64,000 bases of DNA from contig VHCJ01000011.1 in assembly GCA_016871755.1 (NCBI GenBank), forward strand, positions 1 through 64,000, given 5' to 3'. The first letter of the stretch is position 1. The number at the start of each line of letters is the position of its first letter. The position numbers and the translations under genes are program-made. The notes under the pieces were generated by a model. It made no database searches, was not told where the DNA came from, and saw only the letters and a program-made list of their open reading frames with translations. Source of the DNA: Verrucomicrobiota bacterium (GTDB taxonomy: Bacteria > Verrucomicrobiota > Verrucomicrobiia > Opitutales > Opitutaceae). Below, piece after piece: positions 5,785-17,721 of the stretch.

Positions 5785-6408
5785 TCAAGACCATCGCAGC
5801 GGGCTGGGGGTGCTCATGGGCCGATTGGGCGGCCATATTGCACTGCCTGCATGGCGGAGAGGCGGCTCCAGTCTCCGCCCCTTCGCCATGGAGCCGCTCA
5901 AAAGCTGTACCGCAACCAACTGGTCAATGGTCGCCATTGGTAGGAAAACCCGGTTCGCGGAATGACCAAGAGGTTTGAATCCGAACTTGCGGTAGAATTG
6001 CAAGGCGCGTTCGTCTTTCGCGTCGGCGACGATCGCGAGCGACGCAACCTGCGCGGACTGCCGGTAGGCCCGGGTCAAGGCATCCATCAGGAGCAGATAG
6101 CCGGTGCCTGGGAAGCGCGCATCTCGGGCCAGTCTCCCCAAAAGGGTCGCGGGCAGGCGAGGATACCGAGGCAACTTCCTTTGCAGGGATTCCGGCAGTT
6201 CGCCGACTTCGACGGAAAATGAGGAAAGTGTGTAGTAGCCGGCGATCACCGCCGGCGACTCTGTCGCAACCATCACGAACGCTGCCGCCACGCGCCGCTC
6301 GACGTCCTTTCGTGCGAGTTGCTGGAGATAGAGATCAAGCGGTTCAATTCCACAACGGAAGCCAGCGCGATCGTGCACCCGCCCCAGGGGTTCAAAGCGA
6401 AAAGCCAT
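5785..6408 (-). CDS. GNAT-family toxin (TacT-like acetyltransferase)
   Basis: TacT-type toxins acetylate the amino group of aminoacyl-tRNA and so block translation. The protein has the family N-terminus (FRCGIEPLDLYLQQLARKDV), the acetyl-CoA loop RFPGTG, and the catalytic-tyrosine region ALQFYRKFGFKPL. It is 207 residues long, whereas relatives are usually about 160-175. Homology fades after about residue 166 (FLPMATIDQL), and the last 40 residues look like read-through into flanking DNA. Its ATG overlaps the antitoxin stop codon (TGATG), giving tight translational coupling. The antitoxin immediately upstream supports the toxin role. Confidence 0.82.
   Translation of the reverse strand: MAFRFEPLGRVHDRAGFRCGIEPLDLYLQQLARKDVERRVAAAFVMVATESPAVIAGYYTLSSFSVEVGELPESLQRKLPRYPRLPATLLGRLARDARFPGTGYLLLMDALTRAYRQSAQVASLAIVADAKDERALQFYRKFGFKPLGHSANRVFLPMATIDQLVAVQLLSGSMAKGRRLEPPLRHAGSAIWPPNRPMSTPSPLRWS
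5805..5817. repeat. 13-bp direct repeat, left copy (candidate attachment core)
   Basis: TGGGGGTGCTCAT occurs here and again at 8083-8095 in the same orientation, the two copies bracketing the toxin, antitoxin and integrase genes. This copy lies within the atypical 3' tail of the toxin gene, where its homology has already ended. A chance 13-base match in GC-rich DNA cannot be excluded. Confidence 0.3.
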
Positions 6409-6716
6409 CAGGTCTGGCCCGTGGCTGCCCGGTAGCGTCCGAAGGCGGCCCGCAATTCGGCATTGGGCGCCGGCGGCTCCAACAAGGAGCGGACAAAGCT
6501 CCGGGATTCTTCGTCGGACAAGCGCGCCAGACGGTGGTCTTCGATGGCTTTGCTCGCACTCGATTGCAGCGCGTAAATCAAGAAACTCTTTAGCGTCGCA
6601 TGCCCGGTGACGGCAGCAGCGCGCTCGAGTGTGTCCTTGAAATCACGCGAAACCCGCGCTTCCAAACGGGCGGTTCGGGCTTGGGGGCGGAGCGGCTTTC
6701 TGACAGCGGTGGCCAT
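6408..6716 (-). CDS. DUF1778 ribbon-helix-helix antitoxin (TacA-like)
   Basis: The 102-residue product has an N-terminal ribbon-helix-helix DNA-binding unit (TARLEARVSRDFKDTLERAA) followed by a flexible C-terminal half that in this family wraps the GNAT toxin. The ATG at 6716 fits the usual antitoxin length; the frame's upstream extension would run through the palindromic operator and is rejected. It precedes the toxin with a one-base stop/start overlap. By family behaviour it should bind its own promoter, and a perfect palindrome lies 9 bases upstream of its start, which supports autoregulation. Confidence 0.82.
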   Translation of the reverse strand: MATAVRKPLRPQARTARLEARVSRDFKDTLERAAAVTGHATLKSFLIYALQSSASKAIEDHRLARLSDEESRSFVRSLLEPPAPNAELRAAFGRYRAATGQT

Positions 6717-6725
6717 GGGTAGACC

Positions 6726-6744
6726 ATCCGGCAATTTGCCGGAT
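6726..6744. promoter_or_regulatory. Palindromic operator of the toxin-antitoxin operon
   Basis: ATCCGGCAA (6726-6734) and TTGCCGGAT (6736-6744) form a perfect 9-bp inverted repeat around a single central base. It lies 9 bases upstream of the antitoxin start on the minus strand, where the promoter and initiation region should be; CACTAT just before it (minus strand, around 6745-6750) could be a -10 box. Ribbon-helix-helix antitoxins typically bind such symmetric sites, so the TacA-like protein is the inferred ligand. Confidence 0.7.
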
Positions 6745-6808
6745 AGTGCAATTCTGAATTTTCGACCCAGCCGAACCGGCCGCGGCACAACCCATCGGCG
6801 TGCGCCCC

Positions 6809-8050
6809 TCACCCTGCCACTTTTCCCTCTTCGCCGTTAGCAAGACCAGGCACATTCGGCTGGGGGATGACCGCCGCGCCAGAGGCTGGGGGAACGGCCG
6901 CAAGGTTGCCGAACTGCACCTTTTTCGCAGCGCTCTGACTGTGGTCACGGCGCAAATGCCCGTAGGTCTGCATGGCGAGAACGCCGCCGTCGTTATGCCC
7001 CATCCACGCGGCAACCGTCGGCATGTCCACTCCCGACTCGATGCAAATCGTGGCAAAGAGATGCCGAAAATCGTGGTGCGTGAAACGCTGCATGCCAGGT
7101 TTCAGGCAGGCGGCATCGATCGTCTTTTGACACTCTTTGAGCCGAAAGATCGGATCCGTCGGCCTGAGGAGATTCGCTCCCTCGGATTTGAAACGGGCGG
7201 CGGACTCACGACGCGCGGTGATTTTTTTCAAGAAGGCGGCAAGTGCCGGGAAAAGTGGAATGAAACGGTCCGAAGAGTCGGACTTGTAGCCCGGGATGCG
7301 GACCTGTTCATGCGCCCAGGTAACGCACTGCCAGGTGATCACAGCGGCCTCTCCGAGGCGTGCTCCGGAGAGGGTGAGAAAGCGGCAAAAGTCAGCGGCT
7401 TCGGCTCCCCGCCCCCCGGGGGCGCCGTTGTTCTCCATCGCCGCGAACAGCTTCTCGACCTCCGCCATGCTCGGAAGGATGATTTTCGCTCTTACGACCT
7501 TCTTCTTTAGCCGGCCGGTTGGCGGCTTTACCGCGACGGGATTCGTGTGAATCTGCCCACGCTCCAAGGCAATGTCCATGAGGCGGCGCAACGTATCGAT
7601 GGCGAGGTTAACCGACGTGGCGGAGTTGCCCTTGATGGTGGTCTTGGCGCCAGGCGGCAGGTAGTTGGTACCTTCCAGTTTGAACCGCGTGACCCAGTCG
7701 AAGACGGCGGACGGAGTGATCTGCTTGGGCGCCATGAATTCGATATCAGGCCAAGTTTTCCTGAGCTTCTTGAGGGCGACCAGCCGCGCACTTACAGAAG
7801 CCGGTCGCAAATCGGAATCGGCCTTGGTCCGGGCGACGTAAACCGCGATCAGGTCGCCGACGGCGGCCTTGCCGGCCTCTACGTTGGCAATGCTGCCCCG
7901 ACGCTTGGCCACTTCCGCCGCCCTGTCCGCCAGGCGGAGCTTGGCGACCGAGAGCACATCAGTGTCGAGCTGGAACCATTTTTGCTTGCCGTGCAAAGTG
8001 AACCGCCCGTAGTAACCGCCGCTCTGTTTGTTGCGAAGCAGGCACTGCAC
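6809..8050 (-). CDS. Tyrosine recombinase / phage-type integrase
   Basis: The protein has the catalytic set of tyrosine recombinases: Arg231 (SGARLGEA), Lys256 (GYKSDSSDR), His326-x-x-Arg329 (THHDFRHLF), His352 (MGHNDGG) and the nucleophile Tyr363 (MQTYGHLRRD). An N-terminal arm-binding-like region (GYYGRFTLHGKQKWFQ) and a SAM-like core-binding domain (about 60-175) precede the catalytic domain. All catalytic residues are present, so it is probably active. The start is a GTG at 8050. The gene lies 123 bases from a tRNA gene but on its 5' side, whereas tRNA-targeting integrases usually sit beyond the 3' end. It probably mobilises, or once mobilised, the adjacent toxin-antitoxin pair. Confidence 0.9.
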   Translation of the reverse strand: MQCLLRNKQSGGYYGRFTLHGKQKWFQLDTDVLSVAKLRLADRAAEVAKRRGSIANVEAGKAAVGDLIAVYVARTKADSDLRPASVSARLVALKKLRKTWPDIEFMAPKQITPSAVFDWVTRFKLEGTNYLPPGAKTTIKGNSATSVNLAIDTLRRLMDIALERGQIHTNPVAVKPPTGRLKKKVVRAKIILPSMAEVEKLFAAMENNGAPGGRGAEAADFCRFLTLSGARLGEAAVITWQCVTWAHEQVRIPGYKSDSSDRFIPLFPALAAFLKKITARRESAARFKSEGANLLRPTDPIFRLKECQKTIDAACLKPGMQRFTHHDFRHLFATICIESGVDMPTVAAWMGHNDGGVLAMQTYGHLRRDHSQSAAKKVQFGNLAAVPPASGAAVIPQPNVPGLANGEEGKVAG

Positions 8051-8082
8051 GGAGGTTCTTTCTCATACATTGCGTTTTCCCT

Positions 8083-8095
8083 TGGGGGTGCTCAT
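8083..8095. repeat. 13-bp direct repeat, right copy (candidate attachment core)
   Basis: Second copy of TGGGGGTGCTCAT, located between the integrase start and the tRNA gene; see the copy at 5805-5817. The pair encloses about 2.3 kb holding exactly the three accessory genes. Confidence 0.3.
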
Positions 8096-8107
8096 ATTCA
8101 TGCCTCC

Positions 8108-8130
8108 ACTGTAGAAAACGACTGTAGAAA
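8108..8130. repeat. Two direct copies of ACTGTAGAAA (possible integrase arm sites)
   Basis: ACTGTAGAAA occurs at 8108-8117 and 8121-8130, a 13-base period, immediately upstream of the integrase gene. Short direct repeats beside an integrase gene are typical of arm-type binding sites. The stretch 8051-8173 is also clearly richer in A and T than the neighbouring DNA. No binding evidence exists beyond position and repetition. Confidence 0.35.
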
Positions 8131-8173
8131 GTTAATTCGGTGGTGCTTGTAAGTAGCTCAGAAAGCTTGGTTT

Positions 8174-8248
<75 letters not shown>

Positions 8249-8294: not shown

Positions 8295-10919
8295 CTAGAC
8301 TTCGCTGGGAAGCAGCCACCGGAAGTCGATCACCTTGAGGCGGCGTGGTCCAAGATTAGCCAGCGGGCCTGTCCGGTGATCCGCATCCTCCCCGGATTCC
8401 GTCATCGCATCGACGGCTTCTGCAAAGCGCTGGAGCGTCGCTTCCGCCCAGGCGCGCGCCAACACCCTTCCGGTTCGCGCGTCCTTCACGTCTGCATAGA
8501 CGCGGACCAGAAAGGTGTCGGACCGTGCCGTCAACCGGGCGCCGAGACGGCAGAGGAGGTCCCCTTGGTCGATCCAGCCCGGTAACCCCCGACTCCCGGT
8601 GGGAAGACCCGCATTCACGCCAGCGTCCGCGATCGCATCCTCCAGAACGCCCGAGTCAACAAAGTCAGCGACCGAGCGAAACGGTCGAGCGCGGGTTCGA
8701 CTGCGCGCCACCACTGCTGCGGCCAGCGCCGCTGCCCGGTCCGGCGTTTCGGTGTCCACGAGACCGCTCCCTTCGCCGTGCCGCGGCGTGCGAAGTCCGG
8801 CCCAGCCCGGCAGGCCGGTAACCTCCAGCGCCCCGCCCAGGAGCGCGGACCACGCGGGAACCGAAGTGGCGTTGACGTTGAACGCGCCGCGCACCCACCA
8901 CACCTCCGCTCCGGGGGCCGTCGGCTCAGGATCCGCCGCGTCCGTCCGCACCCGTCGCTCAAGAAAGGGGAAAGACCGAGCCGCCGCCCCCGCTCGCTCC
9001 GGATCCGAAGCCGCAACGCCGGGGAGAAAACAGGCCTCGTCGAACACGCGGTTGAACGCCCCGGCCCCCCGCGAGCCTACGCCTTCCCCTCGCTCGTCGA
9101 CGATCCCGCGCAGGCTGAGCAATGACGCCGCGGACGCGACCGGAACATCCCACCGGACCCCGCACGCCGCCGGCGGCAGCTGCGCCACCGTGAACTCTTC
9201 CGCCGTCGCGACGTTCGCCCAGGGGTCATCGGTCCACCGCGCTCCCGCCCGAAGCACCGCCGCGGACGCGACCGGCACGCGCGCATCCGCCGCCAGCGGA
9301 TCCACCGCCATGCCATACGCCGCGGTCCATGCTCCGGGACCGCCCTCCACCGTCGAAGGGATCACCTGCTCCACCAGCCTCCACCCTTCGCGGGCGCGCA
9401 ACGCACCGAGCGCTTCACCGCGCACCCGCAAGCTGACTTTCACGGTCGCCGCCGGAATCGCCTCCAGCAGCAGTTGCCACACCGGTTCGGCGTCATCCGA
9501 CGGCGACGGCACGACCCACGTCTCGACCTCCGACCCTCCGTCCAAGGCCAAGTCCCGACCTCCGCGCAGCAGAACCACCTCGCCGGGTGCCCAGTCGACG
9601 CGGATCCGATTCACCGCGCGCACCCGCGCTGCAGGTGGCGTCGCCTCATCGACCACCGTCTCGCCCGACGCGGAGGTGATGCGCAGTCCGGGAACTCCCT
9701 CCCACGCCACCTCCAACTCACCGGGCTCAACCGTCCGAGCCACCGCCCCGGCATTCCAGAGCGCAATGCGCAGCTCGTGACGCAGGTGCAATGCGTGCAC
9801 TCCGGGTGCCGTAGTCACCGCCATCAGACCCAACCAGAGCGAGGCCTCCACGATCCCCGGGCCCAGCCCATCCGCTCCGCCAGCCAGCGGACCGTGCTCG
9901 ATCGTTCGCGTGGGCCGCAAGGGCAAGGCCTCGCCCGATGCCACGCGGAGGCACAGTCGCTCCGCGAGCGTCGCGTCCCCGGCAGCGTCAGGGTTCGCCC
10001 AGTTCGTCCGCCAACCCGGCGACGCGGGGTTGGTGGAGGTCAGCAGGCCACGGCTGAGGGCCGTGACGTCGTGGAAGCGGCCGCGCAGCCGGGTCGGTGT
10101 GATGGCCGGGTCCAGCAGACGCAGGTGCGGGCGGGCGAAAAGCCTCTCCGATCGGGCGCGGATCTCCGGCGAGGCCACGTCGAGGCCGGGAAAGAGCATT
10201 TCCAGCCCGGTGCGCCGCGCGACGGTGGCGCGCTCCCAACGAATCGCCGCCTCGACCGACGCTGCAGGGAGGTCAGGCCACGCCTCCGCCGGCGAGGGCA
10301 TCGCGGGCTCCGCCGCAACGCAAAGACTCGCCTTCACCCCTTCGTCGAACACCGCATAGGTCGTGCGCACCTCGTACCGGGTTCCGGTGAGCGCGGTGCC
10401 CGGCAGCATCGGTCCATCGGGCTCGCGCCGCAGACGTGCCACCACGCGATCCCGCGCCGCGCTCACCGACCCCAAGCCCAGCAGTGTCACCGTTTCGGAC
10501 TCGCTGGCTCCGGTCGGGGCCGGGAGCCTCGCCGGCCACGTGGGATCCGATCGTTCGTCCTCCGATCCCTCTGCCAGCCAGCCCAGAAAGACGGGTTCCT
10601 CTCCCGCGACATCCCACACCCCAGCAAGGCCCCGACGCCCGTCGTCGAGCGTGGCAACGCGCCCCGCCCCCGCCGTCACCCGAAGGTCGGGACCGGCCAA
10701 CTGTTCCGCCCGCTCCCGCGCCCGATCCAACGCCGCCAGCACCGCCGCCCGCGCCCGGACGAAGGCGTCGACTTCCGGAGGCGTCGCCGCTCCGCGCTCG
10801 ATCAAGAATCCCAGCGTCCCGGTCCACACCGCCAGACACATCATCACCGCGAGCACCAGCAGCAAGGCGAAGCCGCCACGCCGTCTGCCTCGACGGATCG
10901 ACGTACTCGCACTCCTCAC
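8295..10919 (-). CDS. Large GspK-like minor pseudopilin / Verru_Chthon cassette protein A
   Basis: The 874-residue protein starts with a basic leader ending RRRGG, then [20 protein letters not shown], a pilin-type membrane helix. It lacks the Glu at +5, as GspK proteins do. The long globular part carries [15 protein letters not shown] and [12 protein letters not shown], which I recognise from the verrucomicrobial cassette protein A family. The start is the GTG at 10919: GGAGG lies seven bases upstream, and GTGA overlaps the stop of the preceding gene. It is last in a five-gene operon. The inferred role is a tip subunit of a pseudopilus; the cargo is unknown. Confidence 0.75.
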
Positions 10920-11977
10920 GGCATCACCTCCGGCAGGCGAAAGGCCCGCACCACGACGCGCGACTCCCGCTCCACGCACTCCCACCACGCGGCACCGAGC
11001 GCCCCCACCGCGGCTGCTTCGAGGCGGCGCAACACCCGGGCGCCGGTCGGTGTGAGGATGCGGAGAACGACATCGACGCGGGTCGGAAATCCATACACCA
11101 ACGGCATCGCCGCCCGCGTGGCGTCCGCCCCTTCACCCAAGGGCACCGCCGCCGGCTGCCCGTCCCGACCGTCCCGTCGGGTCGCCGCGAACCCACCGTG
11201 TCCCGGCTGCGGAAACACGCAGGTCTCCCGGCCGTCGGGCTGGGCGGCCCAGACCCGCACCCCGAAGTCGACAACGTCGGCCGCCAGCACCTGCTCGAAG
11301 CGGCGGGGGGAGCGGACGTTGCCCACGTTGTCGATCCGCGACGCGTCTGGCCTCCCGTAGGCCGGGGCGAAGAGGTCATACCCTGCGGCGAAGCTGGAAT
11401 CCGGGTCGTTCCACTCGGGGCCCGCCGGACGGGCCGCCCCACGGTAAAGGTGGTACGTCATCGGGGCCCGCGTCCCCACGGGCACCGCCGCGCTCGCGAC
11501 GAGGCGGCGGCGGACCAGCTGATAGGACACCGCGCGGGGCGCCGGCAGATTCGCCAGCCGGTCCGCCGTGTCCGGGATCTGCGTGAAGAAACGCAGCCAG
11601 AGGCCCGCCTGTCCAAAACGCAGCCGCGCGGCCGTCCCGCTCGCCCACTCCAACGAGCCCTCCACCGGCTTGACTCCGCCTGTCCAGTCCGCGTCCGCGA
11701 CGCCCGCATCGCCCCTCCCAACCTGGGGCTCCGACTGCCGGGTGACCGCGAACCAGACACCGCCGTCTGCCCGGATGACCGCCGTCTGCAGGTCGCTCTC
11801 GATCTGGCGAAGGACGATGTCCGCCGTCGACTCCACCGCGAGCCGATCCGCCACCGCCGAGAACCGTTGCCACGCGGAGACCAGCAGGCCCGTGATTCCA
11901 CCGGCGATCAGGCCCGTGAGCGCGAGCGCGAGCAGCAGTTCCACCAGCGAGGCCGCGCGCCGATGCCGGGTCGTCAT
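10916..11977 (-). CDS. GspJ-like minor pseudopilin / Verru_Chthon cassette protein C
   Basis: The 353-residue protein has a nine-residue leader (MTTRHRRAA) and a pilin helix with the conserved Glu in SLVELLLALALTGLIAGG. The expected Gly-Phe at the prepilin peptidase site is replaced by small residues, so processing may be inefficient or different. The C-terminal region contains VVDFGVRVWAAQPDG and a segment on interpreting values (FPTRVDVVLRILTPTGARVL), matching cassette protein C. Its stop overlaps the start of the protein A gene by four bases, and its start overlaps the preceding gene's stop by four bases (ATGA). It is inferred to be a pseudopilus tip component. Confidence 0.72.
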   Translation of the reverse strand: MTTRHRRAASLVELLLALALTGLIAGGITGLLVSAWQRFSAVADRLAVESTADIVLRQIESDLQTAVIRADGGVWFAVTRQSEPQVGRGDAGVADADWTGGVKPVEGSLEWASGTAARLRFGQAGLWLRFFTQIPDTADRLANLPAPRAVSYQLVRRRLVASAAVPVGTRAPMTYHLYRGAARPAGPEWNDPDSSFAAGYDLFAPAYGRPDASRIDNVGNVRSPRRFEQVLAADVVDFGVRVWAAQPDGRETCVFPQPGHGGFAATRRDGRDGQPAAVPLGEGADATRAAMPLVYGFPTRVDVVLRILTPTGARVLRRLEAAAVGALGAAWWECVERESRVVVRAFRLPEVMP

Positions 11978-12693
11978 CGGGAGTTCAAGTTGACCGCGAG
12001 ACTCCAGCGATGCCGCCTCGCCCGCTCCACCCAGACGGAGCGTCCTTCATACACCGGCCACGAGACCACGATCCACGCCGGAACGGCCGATCCTGGCCTT
12101 GCCGACGCTCCGTCCCCGGTCGCTCCCGGTGTTCGTTCGTCCGTGCCGTCCACGAGCACCAATTCGAACCGTGGCGCCGTCGATCCGTCCTCCAACGGCG
12201 CGGCGCTCGGAGCCCCACCGTCCGCCGCATCCGCCCATGCTCCCCAACCCGCGGCGTCGGCGAACCACACGCGCGGATCGTCCGACGCCAGCCCCGCCCA
12301 GTCGCTGGCCGAAACCCTCCGGTCGGCCGGAGCCCGACCCGACGGCCACGAGGCGCAGAGATTCGCCGCCGCCCGCTGCGCCACGCGCTGCTGACCCAGC
12401 GCGCCGGCCAGATCCGCCAAGGGGCCGAGGCCGCCGAGCAGCCCCACGGCCGCGAGCGCCAATACCAGCGCAAGCAGCGTCTCGACGAGGGTGAAGCCCG
12501 CCGAAGGATCTAGGCTTGGGGCCGTCCCGAGATGCCCCGCAACGCGCCTGCTCGCACCGCCGGAGTCGGGGCAGCCGGCGGCAGACCCGGGATGCGTTCC
12601 GGAACCGCACGGCGTGAGCGTCCGACGACGACGCCGCGCTGCGGCGGTCCCCGAGGCCGAGCCGCCCTTCAGATGATTTCGGCGCGGTTCCAT
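11974..12693 (-). CDS. GspI-like minor pseudopilin / Verru_Chthon cassette protein B
   Basis: The cleavage and helix motif G|FTLVETLLALVLALAAVGLL is canonical, but it is preceded by about 65 residues of Arg/Ser/Gly-rich sequence instead of the usual 5-25. No ATG, GTG or TTG lies in frame between the ATG at 12693 and the motif, so the long leader seems real. That ATG is one base past the preceding gene's stop. The C-terminal part holds AWIVVSWPVYEGRSVWVERAR, compatible with cassette protein B. It is placed third in the operon, as GspI is in type II secretion operons. 239 residues. Confidence 0.68.
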   Translation of the reverse strand: MEPRRNHLKGGSASGTAAARRRRRTLTPCGSGTHPGSAAGCPDSGGASRRVAGHLGTAPSLDPSAGFTLVETLLALVLALAAVGLLGGLGPLADLAGALGQQRVAQRAAANLCASWPSGRAPADRRVSASDWAGLASDDPRVWFADAAGWGAWADAADGGAPSAAPLEDGSTAPRFELVLVDGTDERTPGATGDGASARPGSAVPAWIVVSWPVYEGRSVWVERARRHRWSLAVNLNSR

Positions 12694-12694
12694 G

Positions 12695-13549
12695 TCAGAA
12701 GCACTCGCTCCCCGGCAGCAGCGTGGTGGTTCCATAGAGGCTCACCCTCACGCCGCGCACCCCGGCCGCCAGAGCAGCGTCGTCGTGAATGTCATCACCC
12801 CCGGCGCCCGTCGGCGGGGCCAGGACCACGAGGCAGGGCAAGGCTGTTCCCCCGGGTCGAAATTCGACGTAATCCCACGCGCGCCCGGCCGCTCCCGTCA
12901 CGCCCGCCACCGCGAACGTGGCGCGTCCCGAAAACTGCGAGGTCCGCCGGTCGTCGGCCCGCACCGTCCCGGCCGCGCCGCTGCGCCGTACAACCACTCC
13001 CTCCGGCAAGCTCCGCACACCCTCCATCGAACTCCACGCACCCGAGTCATCCGCTTCAACCACCCAATAGGACCCAGCGGGCGCGGCATCGTCGGCGACC
13101 GGGAAGACCACCCGGACAATCGCGCCCCGGGCCAGCGCCACCTGCCTCGCCTCGGCAAAAGCATCGCGCAGGAGGATCGCGCCGGCATCGAACACCGCTG
13201 GCCGCGAGCCCGACGGCGCCACCGCCGCCAGTCCTCCCGCCAGCAATCCCGCGATGGCGAGCACGAGCATCGTCTCGAGGAGGGAAAATCCCGCCTCGGG
13301 CCATCCGCGCGTCAGCCTGCGCGATGTCGGCGGGGGAACGCCCCGCCTCCCAGCAACGGCGTACCGGTTCAGCGCCGCGGCGAAGTCGCGCGCCGAACGC
13401 CGGCGCACAACACCCCCACCCCCCGCCACCGCGGGCCGCGTCGTCATGCTGGCCGGTTCGCGCGCTCGGCATCGCATCGAGAGACTGGAACCGCCATCAC
13501 CGGCGCGCCGGTTCCCAACCGACGGGAATTCGCGTGTCGCGCGTCGCAT
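12695..13549 (-). CDS. GspH-like minor pseudopilin / Verru_Chthon cassette protein D
   Basis: The prepilin motif G|FSLLETMLVLAIAGLLAGG is followed by AEARQVALARGAIVRVVF and SLPEGVVV, the pattern of cassette protein D and GspH (a conserved pilin core with a value-to-string style C-terminus). The ATG at 13549 has GAGGA seven bases upstream and lies ten bases after the preceding stop. This gives an unusually long leader of about 86 residues, rich in Arg and Gly. The latest alternative starts (ATG at 13447 or GTGs just after it) would still leave 40-50 residues. 284 residues in total. Confidence 0.68.
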   Translation of the reverse strand: MRRATREFPSVGNRRAGDGGSSLSMRCRAREPASMTTRPAVAGGGGVVRRRSARDFAAALNRYAVAGRRGVPPPTSRRLTRGWPEAGFSLLETMLVLAIAGLLAGGLAAVAPSGSRPAVFDAGAILLRDAFAEARQVALARGAIVRVVFPVADDAAPAGSYWVVEADDSGAWSSMEGVRSLPEGVVVRRSGAAGTVRADDRRTSQFSGRATFAVAGVTGAAGRAWDYVEFRPGGTALPCLVVLAPPTGAGGDDIHDDAALAAGVRGVRVSLYGTTTLLPGSECF

Positions 13550-13559
13550 CGAGAGGTCC

Positions 13560-14300
13560 TCAATCCCGCCAACTGCACATCGGCTCACGGCCATCTCCGG
13601 CTCCGACCGTCACGAACGCAATCCGCGCGCGCACTCCCGAATCGCGCAGCGTGCCCGCCCCGGCCAACGTGATCGGTTCGCCGAAGCCCTCGCGGGCGTT
13701 GCCCGGCCGCAACGGCGGCAGAACTGCTTCCTCGCCGCGAATCCACCCGTCGCCATCGCGATCATAAAGAACCGCGATGTCGCTGTTGCCGAAGGCATCG
13801 ACGACCACGGCCCGCGTCGCGGGCGCATCCAACCGCAGCCAGTCCGACGCCGCCGGTTCAAGGAAACGCAGGCGGCGCAGGTTGCCATTCAGTCCGTCCG
13901 CCAACGCCTCCCGGCCCAGCGAATCGCGACCCGTCAGGGCGCCAGCGAGGAGTTCCGACTCCAACAAACCTCCCGCCGCGATCTCCGGGTACGCTCCGTA
14001 CTCGGCCCGGTACCCTTCCAACGCCGCCCGCCACTGCGCGAACAGCGCCTGCGTCCGCACGACCCTCCCAAACTCGAGCGCTCTCCGCCCCGCCGGCAAC
14101 GCGAGTCCCCCGAGCACCGCCACCACCGCCAGCACCAACAGCAATTCGATCAGCGAGAACGCAGGCGGGCGGGCATCAGTCCACACGAAATCGCCACCCC
14201 GCGGCGAACACGTGACGCGCGCCGCCGAACGTCCGACCGTGCGGGCGCGCGCGCCGAACCTTCCCCGCCCGGACTGAACCCATCGAAATACCCCGCGCAT
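13560..14300 (-). CDS. GspG-like major pseudopilin
   Basis: The helix motif AFSLIELLLVLAVVAVLGG has Phe+1 and Glu+5 but Ala at -1 in place of Gly. After it come ALFAQWRAALEGYRAEYGAYP, a stretch typical of GspG-like major pseudopilins, and an Asp-rich DRDGDGWI segment that could bind calcium, as GspG does. The ATG at 14300 has AGGA six bases upstream and would give a 47-residue leader; a GTG at 14186 preceded by GGGGTGG would give a conventional nine-residue leader. This is the first gene of the operon, matching the G-H-I-J-K order of type II secretion. Confidence 0.7.
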   Translation of the reverse strand: MRGVFRWVQSGRGRFGARARTVGRSAARVTCSPRGGDFVWTDARPPAFSLIELLLVLAVVAVLGGLALPAGRRALEFGRVVRTQALFAQWRAALEGYRAEYGAYPEIAAGGLLESELLAGALTGRDSLGREALADGLNGNLRRLRFLEPAASDWLRLDAPATRAVVVDAFGNSDIAVLYDRDGDGWIRGEEAVLPPLRPGNAREGFGEPITLAGAGTLRDSGVRARIAFVTVGAGDGREPMCSWRD

Positions 14301-14411
14301 GCGCCATCCTAGCGCAGGCGCGGCGTCACCGTCAAAGCCCGGATCGGGCCGGCAGTTGTCCTTGCCGGGTGAATACATCGGCGCGGACGAGCCACCCGGC
14401 CTTTGGGGCGG

Positions 14412-16364
14412 TCACTCCTCCTGGGCCTGCAGGGCGGAGACGACCGAGAAGTCCTCGAGGGTCGTGGTGTCGCCCTTCACTTCGCCGCCGGCGGCGATTT
14501 CCTTCAGGATGCGGCGCATGATCTTGCCGGAACGGGTCTTCGGCAGCCCGGCGGCGAAGCGGACATCGTCCGGCCGCGCGAGCGAGCCGATCTCGCGGGC
14601 CACGTGGGCCCGGAGTTCCTCGCGGAGTTCCTTGGTTGCCGCGACGCCGGACTTCGTGATGACGAAGACAACGAGGGCCTGTCCCTTGAGTTCGTCGGGA
14701 CGGCCGACGACGGCCGCCTCCGCGACCGCGGGGTGAGAGACCATCGCGCTCTCGACCTCGGCGGTGCCGATGCGGTGGCCGGAGACATTCAGGACGTCAT
14801 CGATGCGGCCGACGACCCAGAGGTAGCCATCCTTGTCGATGCGGGCGCCATCACCCGCGAAGTAGTATCCCGGCAGTTCGCTCCAGTACTGCCGCTTGAA
14901 GCGATCGTCGTCGCCCCAGAGCGTGCGCAGCATCGACGGCCACGGATTCTTGAGGAAGAGCTTCCCGCCCGCGTCGCGCGGCACCTCGCGGCCCTGCTCG
15001 TCGAGGACCTTCGGCACCACCCCGAAGAAGGGCAGCGTGCACGAGCCCGGCTTGGTCGGGGTGACGCCCGGCAGCGGGGAAACCATGATCGCCCCGGTCT
15101 CGGTCTGCCACCACGTGTCGACGATCGGGCAGCGCTTCTTGCCGATCAGCGTGTGATACCACATCCACGCTTCCGGATTGATCGGCTCGCCGACCGAGCC
15201 GAGGAGGCGGAGGGACTTGAGGCTGTGCTTCTTCACGTGCTCGTCACCCCAGCGCATGAACGCGCGGATCGCAGTCGGTGCCGTGTAGAAGATCGTCGCC
15301 CCGTGCCGGTCGATCATCTCCCAGAAACGATCCGGGCCCGGCTGGTTCGGCGCGCCCTCGTACATCAGGATCGTCGCGCCGTTCGCCAGCGGACCGTAGA
15401 CCACGTAGCTGTGGCCGGTGATCCAGCCGATGTCGGCGGTGCAGAAATAGATGTCCGTCTCCTTCAGGTCGAAGACGTACTTCGTGGTGATCGCGGTGCC
15501 GAGCAGGTACCCGCCGGACGTGTGCAGCACGCCCTTGGGTTTGCCGGTGGAACCGGACGTGTAGAGGATGAAGAGCGGGTTCTCGCTGTCGAAGCCCTTG
15601 GCTCGGTGTTCGGCGGGGGCGGCATCGACGAGTTCGTGCCACCAGCGATCGCGACCCTCAGTCATCGTGACCGCGTTGCCGGTGCGCTTGAGCACGACGA
15701 CGTGCTGGACGCTCGGGGTGAAGCCGACCGCACGGTCGACATTCGCCTTGAGTTCAACGACCTTACCGCGCCGCCAGCCGCCGTCGGCGGTGAGGATCAC
15801 CTTCGCCTGGCAGTCGTTGACGCGATCCTTGATCGCCTCGCTCGAGAAACCGCCGAAGATCACCGTGTGGATAGCCCCAAGGCGCGCGCAGGCCAGCATC
15901 CCCACCGCCGCCTCCGGCACCATGGGCATGTAGATCGCCACCCGGTCACCCTTGCCCACGCCAAGTCCGGTCAGCACATTGGCAAAGCGGCAGACCTCGC
16001 GATGCAGCTGCTTGTACGTCAGCGTGCGAATGTCGCCCGGCTCGCCCTCGAAGATGATCGCCGCCTTGTTCTCGCGGGCGGTGCCGAGATGGCGGTCGAT
16101 GCAGTTCTCCGCGACGTTGAGCTGGCCTCCGACGAACCACTTCGCGTGCGGCAGCTTCCAGGAAAGCGCCTTCTTGAACGGGCGCCGCCAGGTGAGCAAC
16201 TCCTTGGCCTGCCGACCCCAAAACTTTTCTGGAGCGTTGACAGACTCCGCGTAAAGCTTCTTATATGCGGCGAGACTCCCAAGGTTCGCTTGGCGTTGAA
16301 ACTCGGCCGAAGGCCTGAAAACCCGACTTTCTCGGGATACTGAGGTAATCGTTTGGTCCGACAC
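14412..16364 (-). CDS. acs: Acetyl-CoA synthetase
   Basis: Acs activates acetate with ATP and CoA through acetyl-AMP in the cytoplasm. The 650-residue protein matches the family end to end: the N-terminal [14 protein letters not shown] region, the AMP-binding P-loop [11 protein letters not shown] near residue 268, [12 protein letters not shown], the hinge region [18 protein letters not shown], and the C-terminal acetylation-site motif [14 protein letters not shown], whose Lys is a known control point in this family. The start is a GTG at 16364; no Shine-Dalgarno sequence is visible. It is divergent from rho across a 136-base region and is not part of the pseudopilin operon, from which 111 bases separate it. 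Confidence 0.95.
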
Positions 16365-16500
16365 GTTGGTGGCTGTTAGGGGGTATGAGAGGGGATGTGC
16401 GCTAAGTGCGCCTCGCTCATATCTCGCGACAGGTTTTGCACGTCAAGCCCGGGCCACGGGTCCGTGCATACGCGCGCATACTAGAACGTACTCTTTTTCC

Positions 16501-17721
16501 ATGGATAATCAGACTGCCTCCCCGTCGGCCGCCACCCCTGCGCCGACTACCCCTCCCGCCCCTGCTTCGGGTCCCGTCGTCGCCGAACGTCCCGCGCCGC
16601 CCCCGGAGAACCTCGTGAAGGTCGAGGGCATCCTCGACATCGACTTCGCCAAGGGAGGCAACGGTCAGTTGCTCGACCTCTCGAAGTACGGCAAGCGCCG
16701 CCCGACGGACACGTTCGTACCGAAGGAACTGATCCGGCGCTTCAAGCTGAAGCCCGGCCAAATCATCAGCGGCACGGCCTACCCGGCCGAGGGCAAGTTC
16801 CCGAATCCGAAGATGAAGTTCATCGAGGCGGTCGACGGACTCTCGATCGAGGACCGCCGCAACAAGATCGACTTCATCAATCTCACCACGATCTCGCCGA
16901 ACCAGCAGCTCAAGCTGGAGTTGAAGGATGGCCGCCTCACCACCCGCGCCGTGGATCTGTTCTGCCCCATCGGCAAGGGCACGCGCGGCCTGATCGTCGC
17001 CCCGCCGCGGACGGGCAAGACCACATTGCTCCGCGACATCGCGCTCGGCGTGATCGAGAACCATCCGGAGTGCCACGTCATGGTGCTGCTGGTCGACGAG
17101 CGTCCCGAGGAGGTCACCGACTTCCGCCGCAGCGTCCCGGCCGAGATCTGGGCCTCCTCCAACGATGAACAGGTCGAGAGCCACGTTCGGGTCGCCGACC
17201 TCGCCATCGAACGCGCGCGCCGGCTCGTCGAGAGCGGCCGCGACGTCGTCCTGCTGCTTGACTCGCTCACCCGCCTCTCCCGCGCCCACAATACGATGCG
17301 CAACTCCGGCCGCACCGGCTCCGGCGGCCTCGACGTGCGCGCCTTGGAGAAGCCCCGCCAGCTCTTCGCCTCCGCCCGCCGCACCGAGGAAGCCGGCTCG
17401 CTCACCATCATCGCCTCCATCCTCGTCGAGACCGGCAGCCGAATGGACGACGTGATCTTCCAGGAGTTCAAGGGCACGGGCAACAGCGACCTCGTGCTCG
17501 ACCGCAAGTGCGCCGAGATGCGTCTGTGGCCGGCGATCAACATCCAGCAGTCCGGCACCCGCAAGGAGGAGCTGCTGCTCGACGCCAAGAAGCTCGACGC
17601 CATTCATTTCTTCCGCCGCGCGCTGGTGCAGCAGAAGATCGAGGAGGCGACCGAGACCATGATCGCCCGCCTGTCCAAGACGCGCACCAACGACGAGTTC
17701 CTGAAGCTCATCTCCCGCTGA
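16501..17721 (+). CDS. rho: Transcription termination factor Rho
   Basis: Rho is a hexameric RNA-dependent ATPase that ends transcription. The 406-residue protein has the RNA-binding domain (LRRF-type KELIRRFKLKPGQIISG), the Walker A loop APPRTGKT at 167-174, Walker B and the motif VDERPEEVTDF, the Q-loop/R-loop region GSGGLDVRALEKPRQLF, and the C-terminal EATETMIARLSKTRTNDEFL. The ATG at 16501 begins a Pro/Ala-rich 35-residue extension before the RNA-binding domain; extending further upstream would add unrelated sequence. Its presence fits the general lack of U-tract terminators in this window. Confidence 0.96.
   Translation: MDNQTASPSAATPAPTTPPAPASGPVVAERPAPPPENLVKVEGILDIDFAKGGNGQLLDLSKYGKRRPTDTFVPKELIRRFKLKPGQIISGTAYPAEGKFPNPKMKFIEAVDGLSIEDRRNKIDFINLTTISPNQQLKLELKDGRLTTRAVDLFCPIGKGTRGLIVAPPRTGKTTLLRDIALGVIENHPECHVMVLLVDERPEEVTDFRRSVPAEIWASSNDEQVESHVRVADLAIERARRLVESGRDVVLLLDSLTRLSRAHNTMRNSGRTGSGGLDVRALEKPRQLFASARRTEEAGSLTIIASILVETGSRMDDVIFQEFKGTGNSDLVLDRKCAEMRLWPAINIQQSGTRKEELLLDAKKLDAIHFFRRALVQQKIEEATETMIARLSKTRTNDEFLKLISR

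Follow-up and report, generated by a model that had tools for sequence, protein, structure and literature searches.

Which filament do five prepilin-like genes serve when no secretion or pilus machinery is encoded beside them? The question is raised by a stretch of 64,000 nucleotides (hereafter the window) of contig VHCJ01000011.1, from assembly GCA_016871755.1 of a Verrucomicrobiota bacterium of the family Opitutaceae. In this window, five consecutive open reading frames (ORFs) on the minus strand, from 8295 to about 14300 and none with an internal stop, form what is called here the cassette. The initial annotation, made from the sequence, compared the genes to the type II secretion minor pseudopilins in the order GspG-H-I-J-K, took the last four products, in the order D, B, C and A, for members of the verrucomicrobial Verru_Chthon families, and proposed that A, C, B and D form a pseudopilus tip as analogues of GspK, J, I and H. 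The analysis presented here suggests, with a probability of roughly 70%, that the cassette encodes the minor-pilin complex that would assemble at the tip of a verrucomicrobial type IV pilus, prime its growth and be served by the pilus machinery.

The first line of evidence is the predicted structure of the largest protein, A. The model of A (871 residues, from an alignment of 45 rows) has a mean predicted local distance difference test score (pLDDT) of 70 and a predicted template modelling score of 0.75. It superposes on GspK of enterotoxigenic Escherichia coli (ETEC; 3ci0_K) with a Z score of 14.8, 242 of 280 residues being aligned with a root-mean-square deviation of 3.1, on XcpX (5vtm_X) with a Z score of 14.1 and on chain T of the XcpGHIJK pseudopilus model 9a1f with a Z score of 13.9, while the best unrelated chain, a C2-like sandwich, reaches 6.5. 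All structural matches other than GspK fall on model residues 323-565, with Z scores of 6.5 or less. The inserted region of A comprises about 200 residues, a part of which has a pLDDT below 60. The link between A and GspK rests on the fold because sequence search found no such relation: window A did not match the GspK models NF037980 (cut-off 130 bits) and PF03934, the best relative reached 27 bits, over its N-terminus only, and a search of solved structures with the sequence profile of A found no relative. PF03934 matches of about 800 amino acids in relatives were considered as a second class of large K proteins and rejected, since they read as the helix-hairpin-helix-containing protein Tex.

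The N-terminus of A is prepilin-like and devoid of Glu5, a residue also reported to be absent from GspK and PilX (PMC7541494). This feature is constant in the family: position 5 is V, I, L, A, S or T in all 45 aligned A proteins, which have G (42) or A (3) at position -1 and F at +1. The same 45 sequences share the motif GAFNVNSTS..AW, in which F677, N678, A686 and W687 are invariant. Judged from its model, A is a GspK-like large subunit with an inserted beta-sandwich.

The second line of evidence comes from the other four proteins, all of which have a prepilin N-terminus with Glu5. The model of C (13-row alignment, mean pLDDT 70) matches EpsJ (3cfi_B) with a Z score of 11.6 over 153 of 160 residues, XcpW with 11.4 and GspJ with 10.8, the next unrelated chain reaching 4.5; ranks 1 to 10 all go to chains of GspJ or of the Thermus pilin TTHA1219. 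Profiles of the globular domains were compared after removal of the first 28 mature residues, which excludes the shared pilin helix. In this comparison, C, D and the first gene product match solely GspJ (6e-4), GspH (5e-5) and GspG (5e-4), respectively, all off-diagonal pairs being 0.18 or worse. The families that occupy the same slots in related loci agree with these assignments. In slot C, 23 of 25 proteins are matched by the Verru_Chthon C model, 20 by that of HpsC (best 4e-8) and seven by that of GspJ. GspI and Verru_Chthon B each match 18 of the 25 slot B proteins, and in slot D GspH matches 24/24 and Verru_Chthon D 22/24, window D scoring 24 bits of the 80-bit GspH cut-off. Glu5 was found in 110/110 non-A slot proteins, including 25/25 in the J slot. 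The mature product of the first gene, AFSLIELLLVLAVVAVLGGLALP, carries Glu5 and Pro22, both conserved in its family (18/18), and an EF-hand-like DRDGDG loop. Pro22 is typical of GspG, and the product does not reach the cut-off of the curated GspG model.

On these grounds, C can be assigned to GspJ from its model, and D and the first gene product to GspH and GspG from their globular-domain profiles. The assignment of B to GspI is weaker and derives from family matches and position. The type II order G-H-I-J-K proposed by the initial annotation is thus borne out by the folds of A and C and by the profiles of C, D and the first gene product, and so are its equivalences for A and C (by fold) and D (by profile), the equivalence of B depending on the family matches and position just mentioned; as a whole, its K/J/I/H reading is largely right.

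The boundaries of the genes (Table 1) are less regular than first described. Starts and stops that mostly overlap had been reported, which holds for the J and I genes (ATGA at 11974-11977), whereas G/H and H/I overlap only if very long leaders are assumed. Candidate standard start codons would give leaders of 8-72 residues for the first gene and 39-101 for H, those of I being listed in Table 1. The distance from the stop of G to the mature H sequence is about 270 nucleotides and that from the stop of H to the mature I sequence about 200, compared with about 50 and 30 in the nearest relative (locus L056). As the latter spaces the same genes by tens of bases, the longer gaps are lineage-specific. 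The intergenic segments 12499-12694 and 13292-13559 are some 170-220 nucleotides longer than their counterparts in the nearest relative, and H and I are thus left without a nearby standard start codon. No second copy of the insertions before G, H and I was found in the genome regions compared.

Table 1. Features of the cassette, in window coordinates
Feature	Position	Strand	Details
GspG-like pilin (P0005)	ORF 13560-14378, gene 13560..14300	-	start at GTG 14186 (8-residue leader) or ATG 14300
GspH-like minor pilin (P0004), Verru_Chthon D counterpart	12695..13594	-	start uncertain; mature N-terminus at about 13288
GspI-like minor pilin (P0003), Verru_Chthon B counterpart	11974..12735	-	mature GFTLVETLLALVLALAAVGLL; leader of 65-79 residues from the nearest start codons
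GspJ-like minor pilin (P0002), Verru_Chthon C counterpart	10916..11977	-	353 amino acids, 7-residue leader
GspK-like large tip subunit A (P0001), putative	8295..10988	-	897 amino acids; GTG 10919 gives a 15-residue leader; no Glu5
Inserted domain in the GspK fold of A	9246..9863	-	model residues about 350-555; predicted beta-sandwich, C2-like at low Z
Conserved motif of A	8850..8888	-	family consensus GAFNVNSTS..AW

The presence of five consecutive prepilin-like genes, as originally described, is confirmed. Homologues of A were found in 42 of 57 related genomes, and in 28 loci A is immediately preceded by three to five prepilin genes whose order is fixed, which argues that the cassette is not a chance arrangement. 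It adjoins acs in 14 of the 28 loci, as in the window, and lies near rho only in two more; the recurring acs neighbourhood points to an old locus inherited vertically. Many relatives (e.g., L205:4912-5589) have at the front of the cassette an extra GspG-like gene, which is a better GspG than that of the window (E value of 5e-13 against 5wda and 8e-13 against the GspG profile) and which neither the window nor its nearest relative has. Directly downstream of A, most lineages encode a secreted protein of about 240 residues, referred to here as X, sometimes in two copies (e.g., L182:9730-10431, L181:9747-10466 and L132:9936-10715). A single profile fits 66 candidate downstream ORFs. No Pfam family was found for X, and no NCBIfam model matched it convincingly; it does not follow A in the window or in loci of the same genus. 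In Akkermansiaceae and other groups, A is free-standing, often in two or more copies. Near pyrG, two A proteins can be encoded back to back without adjoining pilin genes (L234:8866-16032, L232:10360-17879, L236:7586-14730 and L237:8806-15984), in genomes that look like Akkermansia by their secretin. Matches to A are numerous in some relatives, with 14 in genome G047 and eight in G054.

As the initial annotation had remarked, no ATPase, platform or secretin is encoded nearby: none was found on the 92-kb contig, and all PF00437, PF00482 and PF00263 matches of the genome are on other contigs. Two type II systems are present, one on contig C2 at 208-219 kb (E-F-G-H-I-J-K and a secretin) and one on C3, where F-E-D (26-31 kb) lie apart from G-H-I-J and a K-like gene (13-17 kb). 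A type IV pilus is encoded as well, comprising a secretin of the Amuc_1098 family (on C6), PilT genes and, in addition, a PilB-like ATPase and a PilC/GspF protein. Apart from the cassette and the sets of the two type II systems, the search for N_methyl domains yielded only two single pilin genes. As no other minor-pilin set is among these matches, the cassette would, by elimination, be the minor-pilin set of the pilus.

This assignment is consistent with the distribution of A. Because PilT is too common to discriminate (over cut-off in 49 of 57 genomes), the pilus secretin was used as the marker of the pilus. Of a 288-genome sample of the phylum, 94 belong to the window's class; co-occurrence was counted in these and is given in the order A and secretin/A only/secretin only/neither. 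In the class, the counts are 74/3/4/13 (Fisher 4e-10, related genomes being treated as independent) and, in the window's family, 20/1/0/4. Nine of the 77 A-positive genomes depend on short or weak matches, without which the counts become 65/3/13/13 (p 1e-6); counting true TIGR02600 (Verru_Chthon A) proteins as A gives 72/3/6/13. Such proteins are present in two of the four genomes with the secretin and without A (G244 and G279).

A different explanation is that the cassette supplies an extra set of minor pseudopilins to a type II pseudopilus, borrowing GspE, GspF and GspD in order to present particular substrates. Its gene order and solved relatives are those of type II secretion, and the genome has two complete E/F/D sets from which to borrow. 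However, both type II systems are already equipped with G-H-I-J-K genes of their own, and A is missing from genome G001, which keeps a full type II operon, as well as from G013, which has no pilus secretin either and keeps GspD/E/F and G/H genes. Since A moreover tracks the pilus secretin, this explanation is unlikely, and the pseudopilus put forward in the initial annotation is probably the wrong filament, a type IV pilus being the more likely one.

Several observations weigh against a pilus tip complex headed by a GspK-like A. Foldseek alone ranks 3ci0_K second for A (E 0.29), the sequence of A beyond the N-terminus finds neither GspK in the profile comparison nor PF03934, and the models of both A and C have a mean pLDDT of about 70. 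The globular domain of B has GspI as the best of the five profiles with a weak E value of 0.36. As to the machine served, the co-occurrence test takes no account of relatedness among genomes and, in the 94 genomes, compares A with the pilus secretin only; Amuc_1098-type secretins also occur in many other classes without A. Finally, the N_methyl search was not exhaustive and covered an assembly that is 97% complete.

The way in which a type IV pilus tip complex of this kind would work can be sketched from known systems. In type IVa pili, the minor pilins H-I-J-K make up the tip and prime assembly, a role also ascribed to their pseudopilin homologues in type II systems (PMC10191384, PMC7541494). 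In the cassette, leaders would be trimmed by the prepilin peptidase, after which I, J and K would pair in the inner membrane through their helices and globular domains and nucleate the filament. Without Glu5, K (protein A) would be able to sit only at the top, as the outermost subunit. H and G-type subunits would then join below I-J-K, and a PilB/PilC-type motor would add the major pilin beneath, so that A may end at the filament tip and display its inserted domain.

The free-standing multiple A genes and protein X motivate an extension of this proposal, which is put forward tentatively and is less probable than not. The A proteins may be exchangeable tips of type IV pili in Verrucomicrobiota, in which the GspK fold, the displayed domain and the secreted X would together do the job of PilY1. 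Some lineages would rely on one cassette, often by acs-rho, and others, Akkermansia-like genomes included, on two or more free-standing A proteins (up to 14 matches) sharing one H/I/J set.

The surroundings of the cassette bear on another possible role. It is flanked by acs-rho (14412-17721) on one side and by a tRNA-Met and a tyrosine integrase-like ORF (6809-8248) on the other. A service in surface polysaccharide export or gliding, like that of the cyanobacterial Hps pseudopilins and with type IV pili as the motor, would find support in the HpsC matches in the J slot. Those matches may reflect only the fact that HpsC is GspJ-like, no glycosyltransferase was seen among the adjoining genes (acs, rho, tRNA and integrase-like ORF), and this role is very improbable. 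About as improbable is a reading of the cassette as the decaying remnant, in this genome, of a system that relatives still use: the missing start codons of H and I, the two lengthened gaps and the loss of the first GspG-like gene and of partner X would fit, but all five frames are open over their full length, the first G gene is missing from the nearest relative too and X from same-genus loci, and J is 69% identical to that of the nearest relative. The integrase-like ORF lies beside the tRNA-Met, directly downstream of A, so that an integrated element may end on the 3′ side of the cassette. Adjoining the integrase and tRNA-Met, an ORF pair at 5785-6812 reads, from its sequence, as a GNAT toxin and a ribbon-helix-helix protein of the TacAT type.

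Membership of the Verru_Chthon families, which the initial annotation based on motifs of A, did not hold. Window A does not match the curated model TIGR02600, B and C do not match TIGR02598 and TIGR02599, and D reaches 19 of the 70 bits of TIGR02596. When compared with A proteins of Haloferula or Luteolibacter, TIGR02600 covers the N-terminal 60-90 residues only or does not match. True TIGR02600 proteins pass the cut-off in seven of the 288 genomes of the phylum and not in that of the window. They share with A the N-terminus and a GR.A.W.DE..K region, whereas the GAFNVNSTS..AW motif could not be found in any of 18 proteins or fragments that the true Verru_Chthon A model matches; several of these have GKINLNYQI-type motifs in its stead. 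By the curated model, A is not a member of Verru_Chthon A but only a distant relative, and the motif belongs to the wider A family rather than to TIGR02600. Literature searches for the Verru_Chthon cassette found no description of its function. The present proposal offers a testable job for this family of verrucomicrobial cassettes and for the Verru_Chthon proteins distantly related to it, and would extend the known tip complexes by a giant K subunit that carries an extra domain. Paired free-standing genes of the A family are also present in Akkermansia-like genomes, where pilus surface biology is widely of interest.

Among known systems, the likeness to HpsC (NF038304), a hormogonium polysaccharide pseudopilin, is at the level of GspJ only, and no polysaccharide genes were seen adjoining the cassette. 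The Verru_Chthon A-D set resembles the cassette in that its models match the B, C and D slot families, whereas the window proteins themselves are far under the cut-offs. With the type II minor pseudopilins (ETEC GspKIJ, 3CI0; Pseudomonas XcpVWX, 5VTM), the cassette has in common the G-H-I-J-K order, the K and J folds, the H, J and G profile matches and the absence of Glu5 from K alone. It differs in its K, since GspK has about 330 amino acids and A about 900 with an inserted domain of some 200 residues, and in its setting, since type II systems encode GspE, GspF and GspD with the pseudopilins whereas the cassette contig is without type II machinery. Similarly, the type IVa minor pilins (FimU/PilV/PilW/PilX and PilHIJK, with PilY1 at the tip) form a four-protein H-I-J-K set encoded away from the pilus motor, and cassette genomes have PilT and the pilus secretin. 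Unlike these type IVa sets, the cassette would present a large K of the GspK type with an extra domain, followed in many relatives by protein X.

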